NCBI RefSeq assembly: GCF_000004075.3
Contig: NC_026655.2
Span: forward strand, 2,356,001-2,420,000
Source of the DNA: Cucumis sativus
Lineage: Eukaryota > Streptophyta > Magnoliopsida > Cucurbitales > Cucurbitaceae
Direction of reading: 5' to 3'
Length of the DNA: 64,000 nucleotides
Shown here one piece after another: positions 12,268-59,800 of this stretch; position 1 is the stretch's first letter; each line of letters opens with the position of its first letter. The notes under the pieces were generated by a model. That model was not told the origin of the DNA. It saw only the letters and a list, made by a program, of their open reading frames with translations, and ran no database searches. The position numbers and the translations under genes are program-made.

Positions 12268-13092
12268 TCACGTCAGCATCCAACTTTGCCCAAACCCCAA
12301 TGTAAGTTCCAACTCCACGTCACCACCCTGGCAACCCTCCACAGTCTCCACCGACAGGCACTCTGTATCGTCGCTACCGCAGTCTTTCTCCGGCGACTCA
12401 CGACCCTTCCAATTATCCAACTCAAACTTCAAACACTGGGGTTCCGACACAATCTGGGTTTGGTCATCAAATTTGAACTCGGGTACCACCACCACACTCG
12501 GCTCCTCTTTCGGCTTCAACTTCGCCGTCCCAGACCGTTTGAACCGCCGTCGCGTCTTGATCTTCCTAACCGCTGAACCGGAGGCTGAGTCTTGCTGTTT
12601 GGAAACATGGCGGATATCACAGCCTTTTAAAGGTGGACCCATGTGCGACGCTGCCGTTTCAGAAGAAACCGGCAGAATCGGTGCGCCTTTCAGAACAGCT
12701 TCGACGGCGTCCTGACAAAGCTGCCAGCTCCCAGACCACAACAATCCAGCCGACCCAAAAATGGGATTCACGATCCGGCCACACGCTTCGAATAGCAAAG
12801 ATTTGAAAATAGCTGAAGAAGCCACAAAAACAGAAAAACCCACATAAGTACACACAACAAAGGTGATCAAAAACAGAGTAGAAAGGGAGAAAAGAAACAG
12901 ACCTGGGCGGAGATGGTCGGGGCCAGCATTGATAAGGTTAACGAGGCCAGCTCGGCCGTAGAATTTGGCGAGAAAGAAAGTGGCGTTGGCTTGGGATTGA
13001 GGGGATTTGATCCACTGAAGACATGGTCTGATGGAGCAGCTCTCACTGCAACCTTTACGAAGAACACGGCATCCATTACAGCTCATACGCAT
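12268..13092 (-). CDS. LBD42: class II LOB-domain (LBD) transcription factor, LBD42/LBD41-like
   Basis: Two exons, 13092-12903 and 12812-12268, with a 90-nt intron at the position usual for the family (after HLRP). The product has 244 residues. It starts [15 protein letters not shown], where C5-x2-C8-x6-C15-x3-C19 is the LOB zinc-finger-like motif. The class II block follows ([49 protein letters not shown]). Class II members lack the full leucine zipper and act as nuclear repressors in metabolic or hypoxia/nitrogen responses. The C-terminus carries LELTL at 231-235, an LxLxL (EAR-type) repression motif. The longer open frame upstream of 13092 is low-complexity leader, so the MRMSC start is preferred. 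LBD42 is favoured by its place beside a COL gene (Arabidopsis At1g68510/At1g68520); domain sequence alone would also fit LBD41. Confidence 0.93.
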
Positions 13093-36643: not shown

Positions 36644-39600
36644 CTAGTTCAGTGGATCGTCAGTGCTTTCTGAGTCGGAAAAATCAAAATCGTCATCTTC
36701 ATCCTCTTCGTATTCACTGTCTTCATCATTGCTATCTTCATCATTGTCAACATCTGAAACAGCAGACAAATATGCTTCCTTGTCCTACAGATCACAACAC
36801 ATTCTGACTTTACACTTCTATTCAATTATTTTTTACTGGGAAACATCGAAAGAGATTAAAGAATGAAACAGCAGTTGGAAACTCACTTGGAAAGATTCTG
36901 AGACAGGCCGATCCTGAGACGACAATTTATTCTCATCATCTGAATCTTCAGTGACACCCTACAATTGGCAATTGACAATTATCAAACAAAAAATCAGGAC
37001 ACCCCACTCCAATCAAAGTCATACCGTTGAACACTTCCAACAATCTCACATAAAAAGATCATTCACAGTTAAAAATAGTTACATGATCATACAAGAAGCC
37101 TCGACAGTTTCTACTGACATCCTATGTAACGTGGAAGAAAGTGTTCTGCATAATTTAAGAAGTTTCTACTTACAATTTCTTTCTTCATTTGCTCTATGTT
37201 TTGCTCGAGTTCAGATATGTGCTGACTGAGAGCCTACACAATTTTGGATAGATGATACAAGGTGAAGATCAGAGGGTCAAGAAAAGTGGATGATAAACAC
37301 CAAAAGAAATAAAATAGATAAAGTAATGAACAAAAAATAAAACCTCGTGACGCTGCATGGCAACTGAACGCTTCAATGCTTTTGCCTTTGTAAGTAAGTT
37401 TCTTGGTCTCAAGGCAATGGGTCGACGATAATTCTTTCCACGATAGTAAACAAGGGCATACCCTTTTGGAACTCTATCTATCGAAACAAGTATTCCACCA
37501 CTCTCATACTCCAACAATCTTGCAGTTTCTTCCACAAAAGCAAGTGTTTTTTGCTTGCTAATTAACTTCACAAGCTCTCTATGCTTCCAGTGTAAATGCA
37601 TGTTTTCAACAACACCATCAAAGACACCACGAATGCCTGGAAAATCACAATTATTTTATAAGAAAAAATATAGAAATTGTACATCGCTAATCAACCTATA
37701 TTTTCAAATTAATTTCACTCACCCATAGGTAAATATGCGGTCATTCGTAACCCAACCCTCCGAAACATGACTCGTTCCTCATCTGTTATTGTTTCCTGGT
37801 CATCGTCGGGGCTAGAAAGAATCATGGATGCTTCGATTTTAGATAGCAATTTTTCTGCTCTAAGTTTCTTCGCTTGGGCCTAACCATCAAGTTATTAAAA
37901 ATCAAAATTGATTATTCTATGAGAAGATCAATATCAGCAATCCAACATTCTGGGACAAAATAAAATGGATAATACTTACAACACCTAGCTTGTGTTCAAT
38001 TCGTCTGACAAGTCTTGCAGTTTTTGCTCTGGAGCTTTCTTCAACCATTTTTTCACGCTCTTCAGCAGTTATTTCCCTTCCCCATCTGGACTGAGCCTCA
38101 TAGAATTCGGCCAAGGTACCTGCAGGTGCCTGTCCATTAATGCTTAATGAAGTTGCCTCGACCACTTTATTACGAACTTTCTCTTCCACATCTTGAATCT
38201 GTTTTGTTAATTCCTGCCTTTCTGTCAAAGCTACAGCTACACTTGGTGGGAGAAAATCCTTCCCACGGTATATGACGATAAAATATTTATTCCTCAATAG
38301 TAACACACCTCCTGTTAAGTTCTGCACCGTGGATAAACTTTATGGTGAAAATGATATTAATACAGGCAACAAATAACTTTGTTTAGCTTTGAAATGGTAG
38401 CGTGAGAAACTAAACACAAATAATTATAGAGAAAATCAGAAGGTTGCACAATATCGCCCACAAGGGACATCAAAGGTCAAAACATTCTTTGTTCTTGGGA
38501 TAAAATAGCATGGTTTTTGGTTTTAAACTTCTGTATAACAAGAAAGAGCATTCATTACACATTTATACCCCCAAAAAAAGAAAAGAAAAGAAAAAAGAAT
38601 ATGAAGCGCACCCCTATCTCCTCAGCCATGAGTTTATTATTGGTGTTCTGTATGCCTCTTTTGACAGCAATTTTAACCACTAGGCTTTTTTCCCAAAGTT
38701 TAAGTATAGCAACAGCCAAACCCTGATGGTTCCTATTTCTCCCTGCGTATAAAGATTTTAGAGGAAAATGTTCACCGAACAGTATGTTCATAACAGAATC
38801 ATGTAACAAAATGAAGGAGCACGAGAAAATACCAAGGGCAAAATGACAAGGTAAGGATTTTGCAAGTTTCCTCATCTGAGTCATCTCTGCATTGGTAAGT
38901 CGAGACCGCATTCCAGTTGGAAGAAGCCTGAAAGGAGTTTTGTAACCCGGAATACTTGGAGGAAGCTGATCGGCATCAACAGGAAGCACTCCCGTGCCCC
39001 ACCATTCAACAAAACGAGGACCTAAACCATCTAGTAGTTGGTTGTATTCAGCTTCTTCCTCTGACAAGCCCTCGTTAGACATAGGAGGCCCAATCGGCAT
39101 CATAGTCTTCTCTGGAACTGAAGCTGCAACATTGTCACTCGTTGAAGTGGTAGCAGAAGAGACATCTGGGATGAATACCCCATCCCCATCCCTTGTAAGG
39201 GGTTTAATTTTAGAAGGTCCTTCATAGTTACTACCGCGGTAAACAACCATAACACTTCCAGACCTCCATAGAACCAATCCCCCAGTTCGTCGCTGGTCAT
39301 CACACCATGTAATCAGTTACATTCTCCATGCATCCATATGAATGAAAAACGAAAGAGATAAAGGTCCCACTACATGAAGTTCCGTATATCAGACAAAACC
39401 AGAGTATTTTAAAAGTATCCATCTCTCATTTTACTTTAAGAAATCAGTTCAAGAAGAGATATCTAGCTATTTTCCATACTACCATGAAATACATCAATCC
39501 AAAAAATGACCCAGTATTGCAAAAATCAGTGGATTAAATATCTAGGATCCTGCCTGAAGAACAATACCCAAGCTTCCAATCTTAAAATCCATGTATATGT

Positions 39601-40676
39601 GTATTTATACGTTTAGTGAGCCCTATAACGCATAGTACTAAAATACATTCAATCAAGAATTACACAAAAAAATCAATTTCCTTTCAACAACCACTGCCCC
39701 ACAAAAGAAAGAGATCCTTATCCAGGGGTAGAAGAAAACAACATTAGAGAACATTACTTAAATCTTGGTCTAGAGTTAACATGGGAAGAAGCAATCAGTA
39801 ACAAACCTCTACAATCTCATGTGCTGTCTTCATATCATGCGCAAGTTCCTCATGGAACTTAAGCCTTACCAATTCCTCCTTCCTCCATTTCCCATGAATC
39901 TTCTCCAACACTGCCTGTGTAGTCCCCGCTTTCGGTACATTAATCCGCTCTCTAATAGACATCCCCATTCGCCTCAGTCGCCTCAGCTCCTCATCTTCAA
40001 TAGTCAATTCAGCTAAAGTCGGAGCCTTCATATTTCTCCTCTTCAACCCCCTTCCACACTCCTCCTCTTCACCCCTTTCCTCCTCTCTTTCCCAAGGTAA
40101 AACCATTCCATCCTCCCCATCCTCATTCGAAACCAATGAGGCATCAGGTCGTATCCATTCACGTTGAAGTAAATCCCCAAGTCTTTCCTCCCCAGTCACC
40201 GGCCTTGCCTTGAGAGAATCCAATCCGTCATCCTCTCCATCCTCCTCGTCCTCGTCCTCGTCCTCATCATCTGAACCTATCCCTAAATTCCGTAAGCGAA
40301 GCACGATTCGCTCAATTGCAGTCTGCCCCTTATCCTTATCTAAGTACTCGGACTGATTCTCCGCTCGATCAGTCCGATCATGTCGGGACGGTCGGACCAC
40401 CTTCTTCTCGACTTTACGATCATTCCGTGAGCTCCCAGAAGGCCATTTGGAGATCCAAGAAGAAGAAGAAGAAGAAGAAGAAGGGGGTGCAGAATTGTGA
40501 GAGGTTTTAGGGATTCTTTTGCCGCTATGCTCAGTATGGGTACGGAGAGAAGAGAAAGTGTTAAGAATCTGCAAAGAGAAATTGGGATGATTAGAGAGAA
40601 GTGTACGGGAGTGGGAGGAGAGTGGAAATGAGTTCTTGAATGGAAGTTCAGATAGTTTGGCAGTTGCAAAGGCCAT
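36644..40676 (-). CDS. EMB1865: three-CRM-domain organellar RNA-binding protein, EMB1865/CFM3 type
   Basis: Nine exons: 40676-39807, 39292-38833, 38742-38612, 38321-37980, 37879-37723, 37636-37344, 37233-37174, 36958-36887 and 36784-36644, giving 841 residues in frame. The N-terminus ([13 protein letters not shown], Ser-rich) looks like a plastid or mitochondrial transit peptide. [17 protein letters not shown]-type and acidic Asp/Glu blocks follow. CRM domains lie at about 219-312 ([26 protein letters not shown]), 410-515 ([36 protein letters not shown]) and 631-725 ([31 protein letters not shown]). Each ends with the family GxxG-type loop region. The C-terminus is acidic. CRM proteins bind group II introns and promote splicing in organelles. 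Position between the NAC058-like and C2 genes matches EMB1865 (At3g18390), essential for embryo development; CFM3 is the alternative paralogue. Start chosen at the transit-peptide Met; upstream frame is a GAA-repeat artefact. Confidence 0.92.
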
Positions 40677-42273
40677 TTCTATAAGTTTAATCAAGTGAAG
40701 CTGAAATGCATTGTTTGATTGGTTTCGTCCGGCATTGAAGTCAGCAAGGGGAAAAACAAAGGCACGACGGTTGCAGAGTGGAACAAGAAGAGAAGCTTCA
40801 ACACAAGGAAGTGGAAGAGGAAGAGGAAGAGGAAGAGGAAGAAGAAGATGGATAAGATTTTTTCCTAAAGAGTCTCCCGGGATTTTTTCGAGTATATGTA
40901 ATGAAAAATTGTATTTCAAAGGGTAAAGTTAAATATTCAAATGAAATGAATTAGGTTTGTTTGTATGACCAAACACATACTTCAGCATAATTTTATGTTG
41001 CGAATTTAAACATATACTTATACTTAAATTTTGTGTTACCAACATGTTTCCTCCCCCTCCCCTACTCCTTTTCATCCTTACTTCTTACTTTACTTTACTT
41101 TTACTTTAATCTCACTCTTCTCATCTAATAAAATTGTATCAAATTACAAAAACATTTAGAAAAAACACCATATGGCACATTTTTTTTTATATATTACGAA
41201 TATGATGTAATCATAAGACTATCAGATGTTAATTATAATTTTATTGGCTTTTAAATTTGTACTTTTACAATTTGAAAAATGTAATGACATCCGTCTTATT
41301 ATCATAATTTTATTTGGTTATTTTTGCAAGTATCCAAAATCTTATCTTTAAAAATATTTAATAAATCACACACGGTTTTACGTACCAAAGTCATAATGAC
41401 CAAGAAAATAAATAAGAATAGTTTCTTAGCGCATACCAATTATACTAAACTATGTTTGATTTTCTCTTTTACTTTTTTTTTAATTAAATTTTTATTTTTT
41501 AAATATGCTATATGATTGATTTAAACTAAACACCACATTTTGACTTGTAATTTTAAAGGATCAAATTAATTTCAAGTTGATGTGAATTTTGAGCTTTAAA
41601 TAGACAAATTTGAACTTTTTTAATTTTAAAGATTCAAAGAATAAATAATAAATTTTACTTGCGCATGGATTTTATTTGAAACATTTGCATTCATTGACAT
41701 AGATATAGATCTAGTAATTAATCATTGAAGCTTCAAAAAACTTTAATATTAGAGTTTAATTTTTGTTGAGTCTTTGGGTTTTGAATGATTCATTCAAGTT
41801 GATACTATTTATTAATAAAGATTTGTATAAGGTTTGGATTTTACTAAATTAATAAATTTTGAAAGATACAGTCACGTTCCTCTTTTACTTTTAATGAGAA
41901 AATTCTACTCACTTCTTGTACATAAACGTGAAAGTAATAATAATAATACCAAATATGTTCGAGAGGTCAAGACTTTAACTTTTGATTTCATATAAAAAAT
42001 ACATGTCAACTACAGTTGAACTATACTCACTTTAACCAATCATTTCATATTTCAATTCTTGTTAGGCTCTCATTTGAGCTCGAACACTGAAAGCAACAAC
42101 AACACTTATTCCCCAGCCAACCTTAAAACTGTGCAGAAATTTACAATCATGGAAACCTGAAAAGGCCAGTAATTGTACATCACACAAAGGGATTAACTTT
42201 TAATCAATCAATCTTAAAGAACTATGTATCGATCTGAAGTGCTTTCTATGGATAGTTAAAAGTCAAGAACAGT
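40677..42273. other. intergenic region between the CRM gene promoter and the 3' end of the C2 gene
   Basis: About 1.6 kb. It begins with a GGAAGA repeat in the CRM gene leader (40809-40851). The rest is AT-rich. 42060-42273 is probably the 3' untranslated region of the C2 gene. In Arabidopsis I recall another gene (At3g18380, SHH2) at this place; no trace of a homeodomain or SAWADEE-type frame was seen here. Confidence 0.5.
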
Positions 42274-45200
42274 TCAATTTCCAGAAGATCTCCAACTAGT
42301 TGTTGAAGAAGAACTAAGAATTTCCTGGCCAAGCTCCTTTACCTTACTTATAAGAAGCATTTGTTCAGTTTCAAGTTGTAATATATATTCCTCTTGCAGT
42401 TCCTCCAGTCTTTCTAGTTCATTCAATGGTGCCGAAAGACCGTCGAGATTAGCCTCCTCGATTAAAGCATGAAACTTGCTGATTGTCTGCTTCATCTGAA
42501 AAATAACAATTCAAGTCCCAACACATCAATGTCAGCAAACAGTAAATGCAAGGCGATCATTCATAACTATGATCTACAACTTTTTCAAATGTTGAGCACA
42601 ATGAAAAGTAACTGGTGTATTTCAGGCATGAACTACGAACTTTGTGCTTGAAAACAAAAATGGAAGAACAGAGAACATAATCATAAGTCAACCGAGTATC
42701 AGCTGTAGCAAATGAATTTAGCTTATTTCTCAATGTCATCCAATATAATGGGCATAAGAAATCTCAAAACTATTAATGCTTGACTCTATATGCTTGGAAT
42801 TTCAAGAGCACTCCTCTTTCTTTTGATTATTAAACAAGTACAAAGTATACTTAATGATTACTTTCCTTCTGCCACATGAATGTAGGTTATGGATATAGTT
42901 TATATGGGACTCGTCATTGCTTGTCTCATTTAATTAATGGAAGAACTTTATCTTCAAAAGCATAGATCACTTGTTTTCTATGAACTCATTTCGTTATATT
43001 TGGAACCTCAGAAAATATATACCAATTTCATGACTTAAAAACCAATAAACCAAAGCTTATGTATGTACTCAATATCATGATACTGTTCTTTAATAAGATT
43101 TAATGAAATAACTGAATAGAAAACTTTATAAAATTGTCAAAGGAAAAAATTTACAATTCCCCAATCACACAGTAAAATACATCACCTGACTTGAAACTTG
43201 ATGTGCCTTGGTGACAGATGATTCAGAATCCGAGGAGGGTTCTAAACTAAGTCTTCTCTCTTTCTCTAGATCTGGAACTTTTCTTGTGATTTGGACGTGG
43301 ATCTCTCCTCGTTTAACCCCTTGAAGAGGTATCCATTTGTCAGCCATTTGGTTTGGAGGCAATCTTTGATACTCGACAACACAGTCACCTATGCTTGATG
43401 TGGGTAGCAAAGCATTGTGGTCTTTCACATGCAACAGTAAAGGGCTGCCATCATCAGGGAACTCTAAGGTCTGATTCCAATGAGGATTTAAAGTTTTGAA
43501 CATAACCTGCAAAACATAACACCAACAGAATGTAGATTAAGACAACATCAAATTGAAAATGAAAAAGAAAAATAAGCAGAACAACTTGGCCATCCAGAAA
43601 CATAACAATTGCAGAAATTATACTTAATTTCTCAAACCTTTGTTCTTTTCTTCAAGTTTCCATATTGTACTCTTACATAAGGGTCGCTTGTCCCTCCAAT
43701 ATCAGCAGCAACCAAATCTTTAGCTTCTATGATAACAAGTTCTATCCAACCATTATTTGAGCCTATGTTTGAACCCTGAAAGCAGAAAAATATCCCCAAT
43801 TCACATAGGCACAAAACTTAATTCTTTACACTCAATTCCAGAGCTCCAGCAGAGGCATACGATTAAGTCAATACAAGCTTGCACAAAGATTCTACTCCAT
43901 GAGAAACTTTGAGTAATACAAAATACACAGGTTATTATTTTTGACAAGAAGATAAAACATCGTGATGTATTGCTATAAACCATACCCTTGATCCTTCATA
44001 GTCATCTGCCTTGACTGCCTCTATCATTAGCCTTAGTTCTCCAGAATTTACTTTTTCGAGGGGGACCCATACATCCCTGACTACTCCTTCATGAAGTCCT
44101 TCCAAATTAACTCGGGCAGTACCGATATTTTCGTCGCCGAATATATCTACACCAAAGCATTTTACCTTGAGGTATTCACCACCTCCAATCTCATCAAGCT
44201 CAAACTTCTGATTCCAATTAGGATTTACAGAAATACCAGTTCTTGTTTTCAGGAGAGCCTGAAAGGAAGTCTGCTGAGTAAATATAGGGAAATAAAGTTT
44301 TAAACTATTAAGGTTATTACATTTCTCATGTTATTTATCTAAGCTTCCTGTTCTTAAATTTTAGTAGTATATAAAGATTTACCTTCCCATATTCCAATTT
44401 TACATATGACTCACACTTCCCAGATTTATCCTTCAAACTAAGATCTTTTCCTTCTACAAGGGTAATAGCCATCTTCCTTCCAGTTCTTGAAGCAAAGTTT
44501 GAAGATCCATTAACTGATTGTTGAGGTCTAACTTGAAAATTATGCGAGCTATGTGAACCATCAGAAAATTGCCACTCTTTAACAATAAGCTTCACTGTTA
44601 ACTGCAAAATATTGAAGCAAGTGTTAACTGCAAAATTTCTTCTGACAACCTAGGTAGCACAACGAATGGCCAAAATTGAATCTTTATTTGAACCCCCCCC
44701 ACCCAAAAAGAAAAAAAGGGATATGTCAAGTCAGACGTCCATAATTATCCATAAAACAGAAGGTAAATGCAATAATAACCCACATCATACCTCCCCACAA
44801 TCGACTCCTTCAAATGGGACAACCATTTCGACCTCTTTTCCACAAAACTCACTGTGCTTTGCAATCACTTCAGAGTCAGATCCTATTGCCCAAAATGATG
44901 TAGAATCATCAGCAGCGTACTTCATCTGATCAACAAGTGCAAGAATATGAATTAGCCGATACTAAGTTAGTTCATACACACACATTTTGTATGTTTGAGT
45001 GATAAAATGCCAACTTTCATTAAAACAAAATTTGAGACGGTAAAATGTCCTGGAGAGTACCTTTACTTCACAACTGGCTAGATAGTCATACTTCACATTG
45101 CTTGGATTTGACTCATATAAATTGAACCGAAGAGTTCCTGTATCTTCATGTAGAATCATATTGAATGTTGAATTCCATACAGGGTTGGAGCCTAATCTTA

Positions 45201-48200
45201 CAGCAGTCCTCCTACTTAGCTCATCAAGTTCCACCTCGACAAATGTCTGCAAATCATCCTTATCAATTAAGTTTTCGTCTAGTGGACTATTCATATAAGT
45301 ACTCAGTGGTTTCCTGGAAGAGTTTCCTCTCAAGCTGTTTCTGGAAAGCTTGCTGGCTGAGATGACTGTCACATATATTGTACCACTAACAGCCTTTTTG
45401 CCCAGATCAACAGCTGGCAATGAGAAACAGCGGCGCCGAGGTTCAACCATTGTCCTTACTATAAAATCTGTTAGAAGTTTAACCTGAAAAGAAGAATGGG
45501 ACAGATCAATGTGGTATGACAAAATAAATGCATTTCCCAAGAAGAGTCCACTGTCAATAGGAAGAATGTATTTGCAAGTACAAGATCATTTTAAATTAAA
45601 ATGAAATGGTTGTTAAGCTAGACAATATGAAAAAATTCACTTCCTCAAGAATTCAAAGAGTTGGAAGCTAGATCAGTCAGTTCCACTATTTTCTCTATTT
45701 ATTTGATTTTTCACATTTTCTCAAATTAGAAATCCAAAAAGCTATGTATTTTATAGACCTTCCTGCATTTGTCTGTAAAGACAAGAAACAAGCATCTAAA
45801 AGTGAAACTAATTAAAATAGCATAGCCAAAATCTGCTACCTAAAAAGTAAAAAGATCTTTAAATTATTTTTCATACCGTATACTGCCAAATGTGCAAAAC
45901 ACACATCAATAATTTTTCCTTGACATGATGAATGATGATTGATGAACTGAGTTATTTCAATTTTAAATGAAAAGATTTTTTGGTTTCAAGAAGGAAATGA
46001 GAATTGAGATATTTTACCAGCCAAGAGGAAACGCCCGGCAGCTCAGTTGCAGGTAACGACTGGCTTCCACCACTTCCAAAAGCAACTCCTATTCTCACTT
46101 CTGGAGTGAAAACAAATGAATACAAAATTGCTCTCCCATCCAAGATTGGCCTCAGGAGAAGCTGAATCAAGAAGTCGAGGCAATCAACAAACAGTTTGAA
46201 ATCGGTAGCCAATACTTAACAGATGATCACATGAGTTTGGAACTTTGAATGATCTGAAATTCCTTTCAAATAAATAAATGATACACTATATACAAGGCAA
46301 GCAGATACATTTTTGAGGTCAGAAACAATTGATGGAAAGAGGGTTTAGGAAACTACTTCACATACATCACCCATTATGTGAATGCTATTGATTACAATCC
46401 GTGCAGTTCCAGTAAATGGCATGGCCAACTTGGCAAGCAACATAATACTCATTTCATTTGTGTCCCAATCAAAACCCAAGCGCATGATTCTCTGCAAAAG
46501 CGTATCAGGAAGCATAAGAAAAAATCTAGGTATCAGGGTATTATTGATTGATTGCTTGCAGGATATCAAAACTAACTCTATTGTCAGGAAAGCATGAGAA
46601 CAAACAAGTGGCCAAACAATAATGAATTAAACATTGGGAATTTTCAAATTTATGAGATGAGGAGAGCAGAGGAAAAAAAATACGGTCTGGAATTTGATCT
46701 GATAGTAGGAAATGAATGTTCACCAAATGGGTTTCTTAAAAGATAATGTCTTATAGATAGAAGGTTAACCAAGAAAGCAAACCTGATTACCAGAAGTTGA
46801 CCATTGAGTCCCACGAAGACCCAAGCCAGGAGGACATGAGCCTAAAGAAAACTCCAACAATTCTATTCTCTCCTGCATGGATCTAGTCAGTATTTCTCAA
46901 TATGTAATTTGATGAGGCTAATCAACTGTAGGCATTATAGAATACGAAAATAACTTACAATAAGTTTCGGCCTCCGGTGTTTTAATCGTTTCTGCAGGAA
47001 TGAATTTTCAAAAGTTAACACCATTAGTGAAATTCTATAAAATACTCCACGGCATTGAAGCCTCTTATCAAGTCAATTTCCATGTGAAAGCAACAATGAA
47101 GCTACTCAATTTCTAAAGTTAATTGTCCCTTTTTCTGAAAAGAGAAAGTATTAAGTGAACAGAGGATTATGTGAAACACTCTGCTGCTAAGAATAGCTAA
47201 GCTCATGCAGAAATGTTAGGAAACGCGATAAACATTGAAACAACTTTAGGCAAAGTTCGTAATGTTAATATTGAGCATATTGAGTTCAGTTACAGCCAAA
47301 TCCACCTCAAAACGATAGAAGTCGGACATTGCAGAAGAAGGAAAATAGATTCACCTCAACAATAGTAGAGAACTTCAATGAAAGTTTTGGGTTGATGTAG
47401 TTAGGCCAAATCTCCGTCAACAGCTTATTTAACCATTCACAGTGCTCAAGTGGTGTACTGGGCTGTAAATTAGAAAGAGATAGAGAAGCAAATTAGATCA
47501 ATTTGATGAATATCATCATCCACATGTTAGGAACTAAGCGATGAAAACCATCAAGGGGGATTCAATAATTTTCCAGTTCTGGATAATGATGTTACCGAGG
47601 TGTCTAGTACAATTTGCTTCCATTTCTTGTTCAACTCCTCTACTAGTAGTTGACGTTGAAACCTCCCATACTGCAAAAACAAACAAAAAGGGGCAAGATT
47701 TCATAATGTTGCCACAATGTAAAATCCCAAATGGCCGCAGGCAATGAACATAGTGCAGATGAAAAAAGGAAGAAGAATATTGTACAAAAGCGTAAAATTA
47801 TAAACCAGTGGCTACAAAATACTAGTAGAAGCATATGTTGTTACATTTTTTTAATATTTGATAACTGAGTCAAAGAGAGAAGTTCATTCTCTAGGTAAAA
47901 ACATCCTCCAATGATTGGTTAAGAAGATATCATTAAATTTCTAGATCTAAAGTTGCCTATAAATAGATATCTTACCCAACTCTCATTAAACAACAAGATT
48001 TACATTTTCTTATATTTGTTTCATTTTAAGCAGAGTAACTCAACGTTAGACATGCTAGAGAATATATGTTGCACCAGTACTCATATAAAGTAGTACAGTA
48101 CACACCGTGGATGGCTTGATTGAATCAAAGTGAGACACTTGCGTCACAACCAAATTGTTTATACATTTGTTTCTCTATGTTTACACCAATTTCATCACAG

Positions 48201-48643: not shown

Positions 48644-51468
48644 TAGAAAAACAGAGTTCGAAGCATAATTCTGGAAGGGGAGAGGAAAAATGAAAGTGGG
48701 TATGGAGAAGGGGAGGTTCAACGATTGGTAAAGTATGGAATGAAGGGAAATGGGGGAAAAACGATGGGGGAAAAACGATGAGGTTTAAGGCATGGGAATC
48801 TGTGAGAAAGACGCATAGTGGGGAGATAGCAGTTGGGAAGAATGATATTTAGGTAAAGAAGAAAGAAAGAAGAAGTCTAAACGTGGAAATTGGAAAATGG
48901 GGTTCTGCGATTACACAGTCCACAAATAAGGGAAATGAACATATTGGGATGTGACTGATGAATTGAGATTGAAAGAGAGAAGAAGAGTAGAGAGAGTCCA
49001 TAGGAAGTCAGCATCAGCAGAACAATCAGAGAATAATTGGAAAAATACAATTTTAATTTCAAGAAGAAGAAAAACTATTTAATTTCTACTAATTTGAGAA
49101 ATAAAAATTGAAAACTTATATAAACAAATCAGCTCAAAACAGGTTTTCAAATGAAATATTTAATTAGTTGTTCAAAGGAGTAATAGTTTAAAGAAAGTAC
49201 TTCACTTTAAAACACTTTTTTTTGGGGAATCTAGTGATTAGAAAATAGTAAAGAAGATGGATGAACCATAATCTTTTGTCATTGCATGTCCTTCTATTTT
49301 AGAAGCATATAAATATTTAAATCTGAATTGAAAGGAGAACAATTTAAGAATTTCATTTTCTAAAAAAATAAATATAGAGTACAATATTGAATAGGATTTG
49401 AGAAATGATGGGAGACAATCATAATCACAGTCAAAATAAATAAGTGTATCAGATGATAAATCTTTATCAACTATTTAAGCTTTTTTCTTAACTTTATTGG
49501 AATGTTATGATTTTGTTTAGCTATACATTTAAGCAAGAACATTGTCTATAACATCTTTTATGAATATGGATAAAGATTAGTAAGGGAATATAATGATTAC
49601 TTATCCATCGTTACAAAAAGTATTTTATTTGGTTATGTATGGTGATAGATTCATAAACTAAATTGTAAAGGTTTAAAGAGAAAAACATATATAGTCTTGT
49701 CATAAGATATATTAATGGAAACCATCAGGTTCAAGTCTTTTCTTGTCGCTCGTGAAGAGAAATAATGGTTTAAATAAGACGTTTGATTCTATGAAATTTA
49801 AAAAGGTTTATTGAAGAGAAAATTATGCTAAGTTTTTTTAACTTCTACTTGTGTTTTTGGGCTCATAATTAGTAAAATATTTAATGATAGCTCATGATGG
49901 CTAGTAACAATTTCATTATTTATATATCTTATATAACTAAGTGAGTTTGGTGATGTTGCAAATACACTTTAAAACAGTGTGAATTCTCTATTCTCAAGTC
50001 TTGATTATATAAATTGTTACTCACTTTATTAGTACCACGGTTGGCGGTTAAACACCACATAGGTTCAAAGTTTTTTCTATTACATTGTTGATCGCTAAAT
50101 TCAATGGAAAAAGAAGTCCTTCGGACGGATGAAAGTAGCAGATAGACTTTTGACTTTTTCTTCCATTCAGGTTGCGCCGCAATGAACAAGGATAACCTTT
50201 TCCATATGGAGGACTCTGGTCTGGAGCTTGATTTTTCAAATTGCTACAACTACAATGGATTAAGTCGCTTCGCTCTCCCTTCTTTCTTTCCTTCCTTTAC
50301 TCCCCTAAACCTTTAGGTTATCCATCTCCATCCACCTCATTCCTCCCAAATATTACAAATTCACAATCAATACCAAATTTCAGTATTATTAATTAACAAT
50401 ATCTAAGAGGTTGAGAATTCGAATCTCTCCATCATTCTTCATCGAAGCTATATGACTTACCAACTTAAACATAGGGTATATATACTCAAATTCATTTTAT
50501 TAATGTATTGGTATAGTTAATAAAACATTAGTTTTTCTACAAATGAAAATCTCAATGGTATCTAAAAGTATATATAATATGTGGTCCAACAAGTTAAGTA
50601 GAAGTCAGAAAGTTCGATAATTAGGATTTGCGGTACTGAAACCCAAACGTGACGTTATGTTTAATTGAACAAAATAAGATTACGTTATATGCTTACAAAG
50701 ACTGAAATGAATAATATTGTAATAGTTTGAAAATGATTGGATTAAGACCCACAATTAATTGTTCATATAATAACAATAGATTGCTTAGAATTTTGTTGAG
50801 AGAAGGGAAAAGTACAAGTACTAGTTGAAGGGAAGACGTGCATGCCATGTGATAATTATTAATTATCAAACTATAACTATTATTAATAGTAACACGTGAC
50901 ACATCTTATCAAAGCAAAATCAAACTAACATTGGTTTGTTTTCAATTAATTTCTTTAACTGTTTAACTCTTTGAATGCTGAAATGTGTAATATCTTTAAT
51001 GAAAAAGAAAAAAAACTATTTAAAGCATTATTAAACTTTAAAAAAAGAAAAGGTAGTAAATAGAGAGGAAATAGACTTGAAATTTGAAAACTAAATTTAT
51101 AATTTTATTAGTTATAATAATTAGATATTGACTAAATTTATAATGTTTGTTTTTTCTATTTTATTTCAAAATAATTAATATTTTGAGACAATTAAACGCA
51201 ATTACTCAACTAATTAATTCTTAAATTTATAAATCCTTTTTTGCCTAAAACTAACCGGCGAACGCTACTGAATCGTAGAAACAAACACGTGGCATCTATT
51301 TGTATCGTTACTCGCCACGTCATCTACAAAATCTCAACCGTTACTGTCCTGGCATGTTTACGTGGCGAATTTCAGTTAGTCCCAGCTATGTATATAAACG
51401 TAATATTCAATTTTATTTTGTGAAGTTTGTGAAATTAAGAATGGTTTGAAGAAAACCCTAAATCAAGA
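48615..51468. other. divergent intergenic region between the C2 and VQ genes
   Basis: About 2.85 kb serving two diverging genes. The part near 48615-49070 is the C2 gene leader and promoter, GA-rich on the plus strand. Most of 49100-51240 is AT-rich and holds no supportable gene; 50040-50260 is somewhat more GC-rich but its open frames have no recognisable domain. The VQ promoter elements at the right end are listed separately. Confidence 0.55.
51286..51398 (+). promoter_or_regulatory. VQ20-like promoter: three ACGT-core elements and a TATA box
   Basis: CACGTGGC (51286-51293), GCCACGTCA (51314-51322) and TACGTGGC (51359-51366) are G-box/ABRE-type bZIP-binding cores within 81 bp. TATATAAA at 51391-51398 lies 70 bp upstream of the VQ start codon. 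Spacing is right for a core promoter with proximal ACGT elements. Abscisic-acid or stress control is inferred from element type only. Confidence 0.65.
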
Positions 51469-52209
51469 ATGAGTCCTCAACAACAGCAACAACAAATCCA
51501 TGGAAAAATGGATAATCAGATCACCAACAATGGGAATAATAAACCAATATTGTGTCCACCGCCATTGAAGATCAATAAGGATTCTCATTTGATTCGAAAA
51601 ACTTCCTCTTCTTCAAATACTTCTTCCCCTTCTTCCTCTTCATCTTCCACCACCTCTCTTGCCAATGGGGTCGCTGCTGCTGCTGCGAAGCCACCACCTC
51701 AACGACATCCGGTGATTATATACACACATTCTCCCAAAATCATTCACACGCATCCTCGAGATTTCATGGCGTTGGTTCAAAAGCTAACCGGAATGTCTCG
51801 ATCAGATCATGATCATGAAGCTTCTACCACGAAGCTGGCTACAACGAAATCCGCCGTGGATGAGAATAATAATAATAATAATAATAATAATAAAGGTTCT
51901 AAAGCTGCTGTTGTGAATGATGATAATGAATCGTCGTCCGTTGTGACGACGGATGAAAATTGTTGCGGCGGCGGTGGAAGCGGTTTGATGGAAGTTGGTC
52001 AGGTTAATTCGTGTTTTGGACCGGCGATTTTTGAGCCGCCGCCACCTCCGCCACAACTGGCGAATTCTTACCTGACGAATATACCCATTTATACGCCGAA
52101 TTCGACGGAGTTCTTGTGCACGAATCAACCAATTTTTAACTATGATGATTCTTTGCTTTTTGGTGGCAACAGATCAGTTAATGATTTCTGCGAATACAGT
52201 GAATTTTAG
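51469..52209 (+). CDS. VQ20: VQ-motif protein, VQ20-like
   Basis: Single-exon frame of 246 residues, as is usual for VQ genes. The VQ motif FMALVQKLTG lies at residues 99-108 in the FxxxVQxLTG form and is preceded by PVIIYTHSPKIIHTHPRDF. The N-terminal PPPLKINKDSHLIRKTSSS block is typical of the VQ20/MKS1-like branch. An Asn run coded by AAT repeats lies around residues 131-140 (51863-51893) and is a likely length-polymorphic site. A Pro run (EPPPPPPQL) and a Tyr/Asp-rich C-terminus ending NDFCEYSEF follow. VQ proteins bind WRKY factors in the nucleus and tune their activity. A TATA box 70 bp upstream supports the ATG. Its divergent position next to the C2 gene matches At3g18360. Confidence 0.93.
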   Translation: MSPQQQQQQIHGKMDNQITNNGNNKPILCPPPLKINKDSHLIRKTSSSSNTSSPSSSSSSTTSLANGVAAAAAKPPPQRHPVIIYTHSPKIIHTHPRDFMALVQKLTGMSRSDHDHEASTTKLATTKSAVDENNNNNNNNNKGSKAAVVNDDNESSSVVTTDENCCGGGGSGLMEVGQVNSCFGPAIFEPPPPPPQLANSYLTNIPIYTPNSTEFLCTNQPIFNYDDSLLFGGNRSVNDFCEYSEF

Positions 52210-53035
52210 GATGAGTTTTTTTTCAAGAAAATTTAATTAGTTGAGTTCGGGGGAGGGATTAATTATTTCATTCCATTTGATCTTAATGTAATACAAAAAA
52301 ATATTATTATTCTCTCCCGAAATAATGTTCCATAGGGAAGAAATTAATTAATAATAATAATCTGGAATTGAATTTCAGTAATTATATCAATTTCATTCAT
52401 TTTTTTTAAGAATGTAATTTATTTCAGAGGAAATAGAATTATATTTCTGTTTCCCGAAATAATAATTGAAGATTAAAATATAACAAGTTAATTTAATGAT
52501 AATTTTATTATAAATTTCTAGGCAATGTAATTAAGTGTCCTGTTAATTAGTTTTGTTTAGACTTTTTTTTCAATGTGTAAGAAAGATTTAATTGTATCCT
52601 AATAAGCTAAAAAAAAAAAAAATACTATCTCACAATAGGATTAAATTATATTTTAGTCTGAATGCAAAATCATTAACAACAACAATATAGATTCATACGT
52701 GCATGTATGTATGTACTTGGTCTCTATAAAGATATATATCATATATTATCAAAATCACAGTATAATAATTTGAATAATAACCACTTATATATATCAGAGA
52801 AAAAACAAATGTTTAAAAAAGGTTTATGCTATATAATATGTGTCATGTATTTTATACGTTAGCATGCACTTAATCATGTTATAACATATATATCAAAATC
52901 ATATATATTATATACGTTAAAAAATAATATATCGTTTATATATACATTGTTAACAATGATGATGATGATGGTGATGTTTACTCTGGCTTACGGTTGCGTA
53001 ATTTGATTGTGGAATTCTCTTTTTCCTTAATTTAG
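52210..53035. other. VQ gene 3' flank
   Basis: The first 200-300 bp is probably the VQ 3' untranslated region. The rest is very AT-rich, with TA runs and a GAT/GGT repeat at 52957-52976. No gene is seen up to the possible exon fragment at 53036. Confidence 0.5.
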
Positions 53036-53097
53036 GTCTTCTCTATCCCGAGTATGTATTCAGTCTAGTTGGAATTGCATCTGAAATTGGGCTGAAG
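53036..53097 (+). pseudogene. possible isolated exon fragment of unidentified origin
   Basis: A 62-nt stretch is flanked by an acceptor-like CTTAATTTAG and a donor GTAATG. It reads LLYPEYVFSLVGIASEIGLK in the phase with two leading bases. This looks like protein-coding sequence rather than noise, and it sits at the left edge of the gene-fragment island. The parent gene was not recognised; an upstream exon of CAP-D3 is one possibility. Confidence 0.3.
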
Positions 53098-53233
53098 GTA
53101 ATGAATTCAGGAAGTTTAGGTTTTTTTTACTTTTTTTGAAAGGTTGTGTTGGTACGATTTTGGATAAGAATGAGAAGGAAGTGTTAAGAATCTGTGCAGT
53201 GAAGATGGTTTGAATAGTGAACGTAATCACACT

Positions 53234-53947
53234 ATGGAGCACGTTCAATTGGTTAGGCAGATAAAAACAACCAAGTGCTATTACAAAATTCTTGGGGTGA
53301 AGAAAAATAGCTCGACTCAAGAGATTAAGAGGGCTTATAAGAAACTGTGCCCGAAAGTTCACCCTGATAAAAACAAGGCTCTTGGTTCTGCTGAAGCATT
53401 CGACAAAGTAAACAAAGCTTTCAGGTGTTTGAGCGATGATACTTCGAGGAGGAAATATGATCACACGGTTTTTGTTGATCAGTATCAGCACCAACAGCAG
53501 AATGCAAGGCATCGGAGAAGTGAAACGAATCATGATTCGTCTGAAAATAAAATTGATCCCAACGGAGGTAGGGAAAGCCAACAGAAGACTGAGTCTGATG
53601 GGAGAGGTCCCAATTTTTTTATCATTCTTCTAATGTTACCATTGTTAATTTACTTGTTGGCTTATATGCCATTTCCAGAGCCTGAATATTCTTTGCATGA
53701 AAATCAATCCTATAGTATTCCTATGGTTACAGAGAAACATGGCGTGGAATTTTTTGTCAAATCATCAAATTTTGATGTAAGATATCCTCTTGGAAGCCCA
53801 ACTCGAGCTGAAATAGAGAACAGTGTGATAAGGGATTATCGAAACCTTGTTTCGCGTTATTGTGACGTAGAACTCCAGAGACTCCAGTGGAATAAAAATC
53901 TCCCAACTCCTCACTGTGCAAAGCTGAATAATCTCGAGGTAGCATAA
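53234..53947 (+). CDS. N-terminally short DnaJ (J-domain)/DUF1977 protein, possibly a gene fragment
   Basis: An uninterrupted frame of 237 residues from ATG 53234. The J-domain (about residues 15-79) is complete: CYYKILGVKKNSS, EIKRAYKKLCPKVHPDKN with an intact HPD, AFDKVNKAFRCLSD and RRKYD. A membrane segment (NFFIILLMLPLLIYLLAYMPF region, about 131-152) follows, then the DUF1977 part (PEPEYSLHENQSY, GVEFFVKSSNFDVRYP, RQW-type CDVELQRLQWNKNL). Related ER-anchored plant J proteins carry roughly 100 extra N-terminal residues (a TPR-like start) that are missing here; the frame upstream is closed by a TGA at 53171. Residues before QLVRQIKT do not match the family. Standing beside condensin gene fragments, it is more likely a duplicated piece than an old gene, yet it has no disabling change in the part present. 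Confidence 0.7.
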   Translation: MEHVQLVRQIKTTKCYYKILGVKKNSSTQEIKRAYKKLCPKVHPDKNKALGSAEAFDKVNKAFRCLSDDTSRRKYDHTVFVDQYQHQQQNARHRRSETNHDSSENKIDPNGGRESQQKTESDGRGPNFFIILLMLPLLIYLLAYMPFPEPEYSLHENQSYSIPMVTEKHGVEFFVKSSNFDVRYPLGSPTRAEIENSVIRDYRNLVSRYCDVELQRLQWNKNLPTPHCAKLNNLEVA

Positions 53948-54217
53948 GGTGATAAAGGTAAATGTGGTTCTCTTTCTTTTCTTAGAAATGATATCCGGTT
54001 ATCTTTTTGGAGATTAGTATCCATCTTCTGTTGCTTGTAACTTCACTTGTTAACCTTGCTTGGATATAAACAATGCAACAGTAAGTAAGTTTGTTATTTC
54101 TTGAAGCTTTTGCATCCCACTTTAATGTATGTTTCTGATCTTGAAAAAGAATTTCATATTAGGTTCCCTCATGTATGGAAGGTAATGTTCAACACATAAC
54201 TTTACATGTAATGGAAA

Positions 54218-55146
54218 ATGATTATCTTTTGTCTATCTTTCCAACTTTATATTCGAAGAGGCAATGATGAAAGGTCGAGGTCCAGGAGAATGCGTATTTA
54301 TGTTTCTCTTTTGAAACAAATGGCTCCCGAGCATCTTCTGGCCACCTTTGCAAAGTTATGTGCAGAAGTTCTTGTTGCAGCATCCGATGGTATGCTCAAT
54401 ATAGATGATACTACTGCACGTTCTGTTTTACAGGTCCATATTCAAAAGCATTCAATCATCTTTAGTCAATAATTTTGCTGCTATTCTAATTTTCTTTTGT
54501 CAGTATTTGCGACCTGGAATCTCATTAGTTCCCCATGGCTGAAAGCGCAGGATACCTTTGAGATTCTTGCTTGTAAAGAGATTCGACTATCAATAAATCG
54601 AGTATCATCATCAGAATCTGGTGATGTAGGTGAGGAAGGGGGTGAGAGCGGAGGAGCATCTGCTGCTAGAGGAAAGGTCATCACTCACGCAGTGAGAAAG
54701 AGTCTCATACAAAACACCATACCCATCTTCATTGAGTTAAAAAGGCTAATGGAAAGCAAGAATAGCCCCCTTATAGGTACGAATACTCCAAAACTTAAAT
54801 AATTTAAATTGAAATGTGAAGTGCCTGTTTGGGACGGTTTTGTAAGTGCTTTAAAAAGTGTTTTTGAACACTTAAAAAGTCCTTTCAAATTGATCCTAAG
54901 ACATATTTAACATTTTATTCGTATTCTTTAATAATAGGTTCCCTCATGGAATGCCTTCGAGTTCTTCTCAAGGACTACAAGAACGAAATTGATGACTTAT
55001 TGGTAGCTGATAAGCAACTTCAGAAAGAGCTCCTCTATGACATTCAAAGATATGAATGTACCAAAGCCAAGTCAGCCGTTGCTGAGGCAGTCAACGAGAT
55101 GCAAAAGTCAACTAACTATCTTTCTCCTGAGGCTCCTCCTCAAGCT
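54218..55146 (+). pseudogene. CAP-D3: fragment of condensin-II subunit CAP-D3 gene (left copy)
   Basis: Three exons with introns retained: one ending at 54433, then 54551-54776 and 54938-55146. Phases agree (0, 1, 0) and no stop is present. They read RMRIYVSLLKQMAPEHLLAT to SVLQ, DTFEILACKEIRLSINRV to GKVITHAVRKSLIQNTIPIF and NSPLIG, then SLMECLRVLLKDYKNEIDD to SPEAPPQA, a stretch near the C-terminus of plant condensin-2 subunit D3. The fragment lacks most of the gene. It ends at a donor GTAAG, exactly where the inverted repeat turns. Retained introns show copying at the DNA level, not through mRNA. CAP-D3 shapes mitotic chromosomes and heterochromatin; the full parent gene must be elsewhere. 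Overlaps the left inverted-repeat arm. Confidence 0.85.
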
Positions 55147-55948
55147 GTAAGTGTTCTTAACAACCTAACCTCAAGTGTTCTTACAGCTTGAGGAGGAGCC
55201 TCGGGAGAAAGATAGTTAGTTGACTTTTGCATCTCGTTGACTGCCTCAGCAACGGCTGACTTGGCTTTGGTAGATTCATATCTTTGAATGTCATAGAGGA
55301 GCTCTTTCTGAAGTTGCTTATCAGCTACCAATAAGTCATCAATTTCGTTCTTGTAGTCCTTGAGAAGAACTCGAAGGCATTCCATGAGGGAACCTATTAT
55401 TAAAGAATACGAATAAAATGTTAAATATGTCTTAGGATCAATTTGAAAGGACTTTTTAAGTGTTCAAAAACACTTTTTAAAGCACTTACAAAACCGTCCC
55501 AAACAGGCACTTCACATTTCAATTTAAATTATTTAAGTTTTGGAGTATTCGTACCTATAAGGGGCGATTCTTGCTTTCCATTAGCCTTTTTAACTCAATG
55601 AAGATGGGTATGGTGTTTTGTATGAGACTCTTTCTCACTGCGTGAGTGATGACCTTTCCTCTAGCAGCAGATGCTCCTCCGCTCTCACCCCCTTCCTCAC
55701 CTACATCACCAGATTCTGATGATGATACTCGATTTATTGATAGTCGAATCTCTTTACAAGCAAGAATCTCAAAGGTATCCTGCGCTTTCAGCCATGGGGA
55801 ACTAATGAGATTCCAGGTCGCAAATACTGACAAAAGAAAATTAGAATAGCAGCAAAATTATTGACTAAAGATGATTGAATGCTTTTGAATATGGACCTGT
55901 AAAACAGAACATGCAGTAGTATCATCTATATTGAGCATACCATCGGAT
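54382..55948. repeat. long near-perfect inverted repeat (arms about 770 bp, spacer 28 bp) made of CAP-D3 sequence
   Basis: Left arm 54382-55151 and right arm 55180-55948 are reverse complements. By eye they differ at four substitutions (T/C near 55128, G/C near 55058, A/C near 54764, C/T near 54419) and one C-run indel near 54770, so identity is about 99.4 percent. The 28-bp spacer 55152-55179 is flanked by an 11-bp direct repeat AAGTGTTCTTA (55149-55159 and 55173-55183). A transcript through this region would fold into a duplex of roughly 770 bp. Confidence 0.96.
55180..55948 (-). pseudogene. CAP-D3: inverted copy of the CAP-D3 fragment (right copy)
   Basis: On the minus strand it repeats the last part of exon A and all of exons B and C of the left copy, with the introns between them. 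A missing C in a C-run near the end of exon B shifts its frame just before the splice donor, so NSPLIG is not preserved; Ser replaces Cys in YESTKAK. The left copy matches the functional reading, so the right copy is the derived one or has decayed first. The copy stops within exon A at 55948. Confidence 0.9.
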
Positions 55949-56850
55949 TGTGACCTGGAATCTCTTATCAAAGTCTCTGGAGGTACGAATACAGTGTGAT
56001 AAGGGATATACACATAAAATAATTATATACACTAAAAAAACGTGCATATACACATAAAATAATTATAATAACATGTACTTGGACAACACAACACCTTGTA
56101 ATATATCAAACAAAACAATGCTAAAAAAATATTTATGTTCGGTATATATTTTACATATAAAATATAAGATATAATATAAGAATCGTAGTTGATGGAAGAT
56201 TCGTAACGAGACTGGTGTCTAAATCCACAAGAATTCATGGCTTTGTTGCAAAGGGTTTTACACTTGTAGAAGTTGGGTGCCTAACTAATCATTCATTACT
56301 AATTATAATCCCTGTATCTTTGATTTTTCTACTATTTGTTGAGGTGGAAAAAACTTCTATACTAGAAGAGTGATATCCATACTCTCTTCATTTATTCAGT
56401 CAATTTATCTATGAATAGACCCACCTTATTTTAAAAAAAAAACAGTTTGATTTGATATGTAATAAATAAATGGGGTATGAAAAAGTGAAAATCTTCAACA
56501 TTCAACTGTCCAACTCAATGGTTTTCCACACAGCCAATAAAAGTAATTATAATAACAGACTTTGGTTTCTAAAATATTACTTTTAAGACAATACTTTTAT
56601 AAGATAAATTAGTTCGTTCAGTTGTGACCATTTTCAATAATATCTTTGTGTCAGTGTCAACCGAAAATGACTGAGAAAAATAAACAAAGCATTTCTGAAT
56701 TATTTTCCCTTGGCATTATTATTAAAAGTATGTGTAGAAAATGTACACTCCTACCCTCCTAACAAGAAAACACGAAATGAAACCCAAAAGTAAAATACAT
56801 ATACTACACCTTCTCTACATGTACGTAGTTACAAACAAAAGGATCACAAT
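55949..56850. other. right edge of the gene-fragment island and DUF639 gene 3' flank
   Basis: 55950-56007 contains patches identical to sequences inside the island (described in the findings). A local repeat unit ATATACACATAAAATAATTAT occurs at about 56007-56027 and again at about 56046-56066. 56150-56850 is AT-rich; its right end is probably the 3' untranslated region of the DUF639 gene. No gene is supported. Confidence 0.5.
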
Positions 56851-59800
56851 TCATTTCTTCTTCTTGTCTTCCTTTTCCCTCTCCAGAATTACAGGAGCTG
56901 CTGGAATGCTGAACCACCATTCCCTTACTCTTCTTGTCCATCTCTCTGTGCTTGGTTTTCTTGGTGGTGAGTACCTTGTAAACCCCTCCAAAAACACCAT
57001 TAGAACTATGTATTTTGTGGGTAAGAAGGCTAGAGTCAAGGCCATCACTATAAGGAAAACTGCAAACTTCATTGTGGCCTGAGAATCATATCATCAAAAC
57101 CACTATGGATTCAGATATGTCATTCATAAATTCATATATGGATGAGAGACCATGGAAACAGAATTCAAACCTGAGGGAAAATGGCCAGAAACAAAGCGCG
57201 CAGCTTGAGGAGAAAGATGTTTCCATCTTGGATGAACTGTTCCGCTTGAGAAATCGCATTCTGGACGGCCAAAAGCTGCTCCATTGCATTCATTGCTGGA
57301 GGAGCTACGACCTTAACTTCATCGACTGGGGTACCTTGGTTGAAAATTCGCGTTAGCATCATGAAGATGGCCATGAATGCAAGTAGCAGAGCAATGGCGT
57401 AGAGCAGCCAATCCCTGTGAAAAGAATGTTCAAGTTCGTTACCAACATTTTTTAGTTCCAACTTAACTTGAGGCTCATTTCTATATCTTGATATTTACCT
57501 GTAGATAATGTAACTGGAGACCAAACAGAATGCCAAAGACTTAATAGGATCTTCCCATAGTGCCAAAGAAAGAAGGAACTTCCCAAGTTCACTCACTGGC
57601 AGCATTAGTTCCTGCAGTACACCACAACAAAGTAAATAAAAGAGGCTAAGATTCAAACTTTTGCCATAGGTCAGAATCATCCTCCACAAAAGATAAGAGA
57701 AAAGATAGTCTAGTTGCCTAGGAAGTAGGAAGCACAAAATATTCTACTCTTAAATAGCTAAATAAGAAATCCTCTAATAGGCAGTAGGCAAGAAAGATCA
57801 ATACCTTCATCACTGCCAAATTAGTATCAATGCCATCTACTTTTGCTCCATCGACTGTCTCTTGAGCCATCACCACTTTTTCATAATTGTTTCTTGATTC
57901 CTTGACTGCCCTTTCCAAAGGAGTCATTTTTCCGACAGCAATCTCACCCACAAGAAGTTCATTTTCATTGGAATCGCTTAAAGTCATTCCCATTCCAAAT
58001 CCCAAGTGAGAAACTAAGTCAAGTGCTGAAATTGAATACATTCCCTTTACAAGACTGGATCTGTTTGTCCGGTCACACTCCTTCATGTCCGACATATTTG
58101 CAAGGGTTTCCAATATTAAGTCCCCACCGGGTAGCTGATCGCAAAGGTTAAACATGAGAAGCGACTCACACCCAAGAGGTGGTGTAGAATATATATCTTG
58201 AATGGCTTGTAAACGTAGAATCCCAAGGACAGCTTTTGAGAGAGCTTCGCTCCTTTGAATTCCCTTGATCTGGAAGTTGTTGATAAATCTATGAACATAT
58301 AAAACCTCACGGATGATTGCCAGCCAAAAATCTCGACGGGTATGGCCTTTAAGTTCAGGAAACTCGATCACAACTGGTTCTGATCTACAAAGGTGTACAC
58401 ATTTGCCCAACAGAGATAAGGGGTGAACATCAAACTTGACAGCTCTTAATATTCTTATTGATAAAATTCAAGATGCTTTCACCGTTAACCCAATCACACA
58501 CAACCCTGCCAAAAAGAAAGGAATGATCTACTTACAAGGACATGGATTTATACAGAACCGCCTTGTCAAAGAGCCGGGTGCCCCATGGTCCAGTTAATTC
58601 AGGTTTGACAACCTGTTTTAGATCATCAGATAAGTCATATCTTTTTGCCTTGTCAAATGACACCACACGAAGAGCTTCAAAGTAAAGTGCATGATCTGTC
58701 AGAACCAACCTACCTGCATATATGAGAAAATAAAGGAGAAAATAGAGATGGAAGTAAGAACAGTAAAATACCATCTTATATATGTCGTCTACTTCTAACA
58801 ATACTTTCCATTAGATGAAATGTTTTCCCTTGATAAGCCATGATAGGAAGGGGTGGTAAACTTTCACATCAAAGATAAGAAGAAATTAACGAAATCATTC
58901 CATGACTCACCCGGCCAAGTAGAAACTCCTACATGTTCAAGAACTGGTTGTGTTGTGACTGTTCCATCCATTTCTAAAATCTTTTCATCTCTTAATGATC
59001 TTTCAGACTGGAGAAGGTTTGACTCTGATAGGTTTTTCATTTTTCTTATCACTCTATCAAGAAGAACATATAATATTAGACTGAAAGCACCAACAAAATA
59101 GAAATCTTGCTGCATAGTATTTAAATCTTTCATGCTTAGAAAAAAATATTGAAAGGTGCGTACTTTTCTAGCGCGCTCAGGTACTTGTCGTAAACAGAAA
59201 ACTGAAGTCTAGAACTAGCTGATGAAGTAAGCACCACAAAAAGATTTTCACTAACAATGACATTTGAAATTATGGGAACAGCTGGAGCAATTCGACAGAA
59301 AGCCTCAACCCCAACTGATGCATCTTCATCAATCTGCAATAAAGGTCGGCTACAGATGAACATTGAAAACACTAAAATCGACCACCTTCTATCACTTTAT
59401 TGTGGAAGCAGTACTTTGTGGTCAATCAAACATGCAAAAATGGGATAATGTACGTGCTCGTTAAAGAAAGTATCCAGTCTGAAAACCACATACTCTAAGT
59501 GATTTTACAACAATCAGCAAAAGTAAAATGAGCGATCATCTCAGACAAAAGGAAAGTCAGTAGAACCAAAGATAAACCTCTGAGAGGTTTAAGGCCATTG
59601 ATTGCAGCATTTTAACGTTATGCAAACAGCACACAGGAAATTTAAAATTCTGGCAAGTCCAAACAGTCCAAGTAAACTAGTAAATGGGATTAAAAGAAGC
59701 ACATAAATTATTTAGTTACATTCAGTTTCTAATTTCAACCATCTATATTTAAGGGATCAAGATACTAGCAAAACCTATAAAACCAAAAACTTACATTAAG

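Follow-up and report, generated by a model that had tools for sequence, protein, structure and literature searches.

Results

A CAP-D3 Gene Fragment in Inverted Repeat between Two Convergent Genes

The locus lies in a 64-kb window (the whole stretch of DNA that was analyzed, in which position 1 is the first letter) and consists of two convergent genes, DnaJ-like and DUF639, with a palindromic block of gene sequence between them (Table 1). The DnaJ-like gene on the left is identified by Pfam matches on the open stretch 53174-53944 (DnaJ, E = 2.9e-22, and DUF1977, E = 1.3e-6) as well as by matches to J-domain chains in the PDB. The gene on the right is identified by two open stretches with Pfam DUF639 matches, and a last open stretch (56851-57090, with its stop at 56851) presumably belongs to it as well. 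Elsewhere in the window, Pfam searches (8/20 open stretches with a match, including one to DUF639, plus another set of stretches) returned B-box, LOB, NAM, CRM (CRS1_YhbY), C2, and VQ proteins, and a partial annotation places other plant gene parts at 8799-9911, 12271-13329, 32632-32985, 38558-40928, 43938-45585, and 51439-52206.

Table 1. Features of the locus, from left to right, in window coordinates
Feature	Position	Strand	Description
DnaJ-DUF1977 gene, left neighbor	53234-53947	+	Open frame from first ATG, one exon as read; source of two filler patches
Possible left-junction patch	54160-54173	+	14 nt identical to CAP-D3 intron/exon border in arm (54935-54948); weak
CAP-D3 exon sequence of sense copy, outside inverted repeat	54266-54381	+	Open frame DERSRSRRMRIY..., nearly all within the stretch matched to 9f5w_D
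Arm 1	54382-55151 (770 nt)	+	Sense copy of CAP-D3 with exon sequence and two introns; frame open when spliced
Spacer (loop)	55152-55179 (28 nt)	.	Between arm 1 and arm 2
Arm 2	55180-55948 (769 nt)	-	Inverted copy; frameshift at end of second exon
Mosaic filler, right junction	55949-56007 (59 nt)	.	Patches from arm and adjoining DnaJ-like gene
Filler patch 1	55952-55964		Equals 54511-54523 (arm)
Filler patch 2	55972-55982		Equals reverse complement of 53873-53883 (DnaJ-like gene)
Filler patch 3	55981-55992		Equals 54775-54786 (arm)
Filler patch 4	55991-56007		Equals 53820-53836 (DnaJ-like gene)
Right flank start	~56006; 56006-56067	+	22-nt direct repeat (56006-56027, 56046-56067)
DUF639 gene (3' portion), right neighbor	56851-58467	-	Pfam DUF639 in open stretches 57721-58467 and 57165-57494

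The two arms agree in 765/770 aligned columns (99.35%), a combination of length and identity that is far beyond chance. They differ by four substitutions (C/T, A/C, G/C, and T/C) and a single 1-nt indel, a gap that adjoins the A/C difference. At their inner ends, the arms read TAAG (55148-55151) and CTTA (55180-55183), and the sequence AAGTGTTCTTA is present twice around the loop, at 55149-55159 and 55173-55183. No further inverted repeats of at least 60 nt were reported across the 64-kb window (seed 14).

The arms carry both exons and introns of CAP-D3. Arm 1 opens with 52 nt of an exon whose start lies further left, outside the arm, and continues through a 117-nt intron (54434-54550, GT...AG), an exon (54551-54776), a second intron of 161 nt (54777-54937, GT...AG), and a further exon (54938-55146) that is followed by the donor GTAAG. 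When the three exons are joined from 54266 onward, the sense copy yields a product of 201 aa that matches residues 1092-1260 of the human condensin-2 complex subunit D3 (PDB 9f5w_D, E = 4.7e-25). This chain is the sole match of the 201-aa product at E <= 1, and in Pfam the CAP-D3 piece had no match at E <= 0.01. The original prediction, made from the letters of the locus, had described two inverted arms of ~770 bp, ~99.4% identical and made of CAP-D3 exons and introns, around a 28-bp spacer; the alignment and the PDB match bear out this description. The block is thus an inverted duplication of a gene fragment, with two long, highly similar, and closely spaced arms of gene sequence.

Two features go beyond the original prediction, namely a leftward extension of the sense copy and a mosaic right junction (see below). 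By blastn, the exon sequence to the left of arm 1 is not repeated beyond arm 2. The sense copy therefore exceeds the inverted copy in length, as it should if it served as template for the inverted copy. Its left edge lies at or to the left of 54266, which is a lower bound on its extent. When 53400-57000 was compared with the window by blastn, the only matches apart from the region itself were the inverted repeat and a 27-nt stretch at 30189-30215, so that no further CAP-D3 copy was seen in the window. A search for the parent gene or a relative, which covered prokaryote genome contigs, gave 389 pattern matches with 0 confirmed.

Sequence Changes and Age of the Arms

The spliced frame is open in arm 1 and frameshifted in arm 2. 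An intact parent gene would therefore place the origin of the indel in arm 2, either as it was copied or later. The substitution rate used for dating is about 7e-9 per site per year, which, with 4 substitutions among 769 compared sites, gives an age of ~0.4 million years (calculated by hand). Arm-to-arm conversion could make the block look younger.

Both transitions that distinguish the arms (at 54419 and 55128, numbered on arm 1) fall at CpG or its TpG product, as does a C/T difference in the filler (55951). In arm 1, 30/297 C and G letters are in CpG. These three C/T sites hint at decay of methylated CpG, although the sites are few and the direction of change is unproven.

A Mosaic of Local Patches at the Right Junction

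Between arm 2 and the right flank lies a filler, in which 49/59 nt are covered by exact matches of 11 nt or longer to local sequence. Compared with the same source sequence, this coverage was reached by 0/2000 dinucleotide shuffles (highest 23) and by 0/982 windows taken from elsewhere (highest 24). A second control, in which windows were compared with their own 4.4-kb surroundings, was weaker: 1/955 windows exceeded the coverage of the filler, with 53 letters in a window at 19669 that overlaps an AT repeat, and coverage in the seven windows listed after it ranged from 40 to 48. Against the DnaJ-like gene alone, the longest match of the filler is 17 nt, while the best of 882 windows reached 16 nt and 29/882 had matches of at least 11 nt. 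From these control outcomes, the strength of the filler therefore lies in the chain of patches and not in any single patch.

The joins within this chain are tight over most of its length. The TTG at the border of arm 2 and patch 1 (55948-55950) also matches the source of the patch and is followed by a single C-to-T difference; with this difference allowed, patch 1 reaches the last base of arm 2 and zero untemplated bases remain between them. The join of patch 1 to patch 2 is not seamless, because 5 nt of the filler (55967-55971) had no source, even when a 9-nt match at 55958-55966 was allowed. From 55972 on, three successive joins (two from patch to patch, and one from the last patch to the right flank) each show a 2-nt overlap. 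Break repair by template switching typically leaves filler pieced together from several nearby sites with short overlaps, and copying from nearby sites with short overlaps is what we find at this junction. Since two of the patches match the adjoining DnaJ-like gene, joining probably happened at this locus, which suggests that the last repair steps took place here unless another copy of the DnaJ-like gene served as template.

The right flank itself begins with a direct repeat of 22 nt, ATATACACATAAAATAATTATA, whose two copies start 40 nt apart and the first of which overlaps the last 2 nt of the filler; the repeat may be native or derived from the repair.

A second patch is possible at the left junction. 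Here, 22 nt (54152-54173) match the CAP-D3 intron/exon border in the arm at 91%, with 14 nt exact. A match at least as good was found in 6/1000 shuffles of the left flank and in 2/166 real windows, and in view of such weak controls we regard 54160-54173 as no firmer than a possible junction patch.

Hairpin Potential and Transcription Signals

An RNA copy of the block is predicted to fold at a minimum free energy (MFE) of -1440.5 kcal/mol with 769 pairs, or with 568 pairs when both first-arm introns are spliced out. The predicted fold is a long hairpin of the kind looked for in IR-siRNA and MIRNA loci. The arms have 664/750 exact 21-mers and 649/747 exact 24-mers in common. The further claim in the original prediction of a young inverted gene-fragment duplication able to form a long, near-perfect hairpin is therefore upheld by the predicted fold and the shared 21-mers. 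Rfam gave no match at gathering score at 52000-58500, a result that says little about siRNA loci.

Because the block is a palindrome, read-through from either neighboring gene would give a sense-then-antisense hairpin. In Arabidopsis Cvi-0, read-through at the VIM4-VIM2 inverted repeat leads to siRNAs and silencing in trans, and the route therefore exists in plants (PMC13213937).

We found neither AATAAA nor ATTAAA across the 434 nt that separate the stop codon of the DnaJ-like gene from arm 1. This absence is not unusual, since 287/500 shuffles likewise lacked both, and GATAAA and TATAAA occur in the same 434 nt; plant poly(A) signals are loose. On the other side, one AATAAA resembling a poly(A) signal lies between the DUF639 stop and the block together with several looser hexamers, which argues against read-through from the DUF639 gene. 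The promoter analysis consisted of TATA-like words, of which the + strand has one at 54065 and three at 56024-56156.

Discussion

Proposed Origin by Fold-Back Break Repair

Together, our results point to fold-back, template-switching break repair at this locus as the origin of the block, a reading to which we assign a probability of roughly 70% and which is the best-supported part of our interpretation. From what we observe directly, namely a palindrome of CAP-D3 sequence, the filler beside it, and the order of the genes, we infer the following pathway and order of steps. A double-strand break or collapsed fork would have occurred between the DnaJ-like and DUF639 genes and would have been mended with a copied CAP-D3 piece at least ~0.9 kb long. 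Where this piece ended, the growing strand may have folded back on the short inverted match TAAG/CTTA around the 28-nt loop, so that ~770 nt of the CAP-D3 piece would then have been copied in reverse. Several template switches would have followed, into the CAP-D3 copy and the DnaJ-like gene with overlaps of 1-2 nt at the majority of switches, before the right-hand end was joined. The pathway that appears to fit best is polymerase-theta-type end joining or microhomology-mediated break-induced replication, and the outcome would be a young palindrome between two convergent genes. Read-through RNA of this palindrome could fold into a long hairpin, from which plant Dicer-like enzymes could cut siRNAs that match CAP-D3.

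Elements of this route have been described in other systems. Polymerase theta can extend stem-loops that are held by two terminal base pairs (PMC11292364). Foldback inversions in yeast resemble the present block in that an inverted copy adjoins a short inverted match, which here is a candidate fold-back point. Against the fold-back model, the yeast inversions are 2 to about 150 bp long, and their inverted microhomology is 10 bp and imperfect, around a loop of 41 nt, compared with ~770 nt and 4 bp here (PMC11724301). Complex filler DNA has been reported at break-repair junctions of maize p2/p1, where, as at our right junction, the filler was copied from more than one nearby site (PMC2686159).

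Inverted duplication (the Allen model) is a proposed founder of MIRNA and IR-siRNA genes, and such duplications might arise by mechanisms that are not well known (PMC3237417). The block, a candidate founder, shares with the loci treated there an inverted fragment of a protein-coding gene and a possible hairpin that matches the parent gene; it differs in that its arms are long, near-perfect, and intron-containing, and that its junction suggests a route of formation. A search of the open-access literature found nothing joining CAP-D3, an inverted repeat, siRNA, and plant, which is not proof of absence.

A Probable Scar or a Possible Silencing Locus

What became of the block after its formation can be read in more than one way. 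Probably, it is a young scar that is capable of giving hairpin RNA via read-through and that has little effect on CAP-D3. A stricter version, in which the block has the same repair origin, is never transcribed at a meaningful level, and simply decays by mutation, comes close to an even bet but stays below it. Break repair alone can explain the structure, arm 2 is already frameshifted, and the block sits between the ends of two genes, all of which suit an inert scar; against it, natural inverted repeats of genes can be sources of siRNAs (PMC13213937). The wording of the original prediction, by which the locus was "aimed at" CAP-D3, implies a purpose, and none is evident from the structure.

A functioning young siRNA locus is compatible with a repair origin. 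Its read-through transcripts, or transcripts of its own, would be diced, and the resulting siRNAs would reduce expression of CAP-D3 or cause methylation of the parent gene. The near-perfect long hairpin predicted for the block, which keeps most of its pairs when the first-arm introns are spliced, and the 21-mers common to the arms speak for such a function, as do the missing AATAAA and ATTAAA on the DnaJ-like side and the position of all three C/T differences at CpG or TpG sites, a possible trace of DNA methylation. However, the hexamer absence is ordinary by the shuffles and GATAAA and TATAAA are present, an AATAAA precedes the block on the right side, and the C/T sites are only three with no proven direction; DNA methylation is common anyway. 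We consider a siRNA role plausible, with a weak or absent role more likely than a strong one. Any siRNAs would, we expect, be of low abundance or act locally, and CAP-D3 is unlikely to be measurably affected. A siRNA locus in full function is improbable in our estimate.

A close natural comparison is with the Arabidopsis Cvi-0 inverted repeats VIM4-VIM2 and PAI4-PAI1, which are likewise natural palindromes of gene sequence with possible read-through hairpin RNA (PMC13213937). These are pairs of related genes for which siRNAs and methylation were measured, whereas the present case is a gene fragment between unrelated genes and a putative siRNA source.

The most far-reaching reading, for which we hold out little expectation, would be that we are looking at the birth of a silencing locus, in which a single fold-back repair event made a hairpin gene matching CAP-D3 that is expressed via read-through from a neighbor. 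If true, this would show at base level how the founding inverted duplications of plant small-RNA genes arise. 

The junction of the block is still readable and points to template-switching repair, and the idea is therefore testable by looking across plant genomes for young inverted gene fragments accompanied by local filler. If the hairpin is expressed as well, it might knock down condensin II naturally; in Arabidopsis, plants that lack condensin II have disturbed meiotic chromosomes (PMC4552968).

Transposon Capture and Assembly Artefact as Unlikely Alternatives

Long inverted repeats that carry gene fragments are typical of Pack-MULE and foldback elements. Capture of CAP-D3 by a transposon whose long terminal inverted repeats would be the two arms could thus produce a similar block, yet here the ends of the arms fall within a CAP-D3 exon, and the right-hand junction consists of local filler. 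Since the sense copy extends beyond the arm, at least as far left as 54266, the arms do not represent transposon ends. A target-site duplication was not seen either, as the longest direct match between the flanks is 8 nt, roughly the length that chance might be expected to give. We reject a transposon origin, giving it only a very slim chance.

A palindrome with a short spacer is also the usual form taken by missed-adapter and fold-back reads, but an assembly or read artefact of this sort is highly improbable, being disfavored by the four-patch local filler and the different flank with the DUF639 gene that follow arm 2, and by the five columns at which the arms differ, one of them a frameshift. 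The original prediction had argued against a fold-back artefact from the scattered mismatches; its conclusion that the rearrangement is real is supported, although the templated filler supports it better than the mismatches that were cited.
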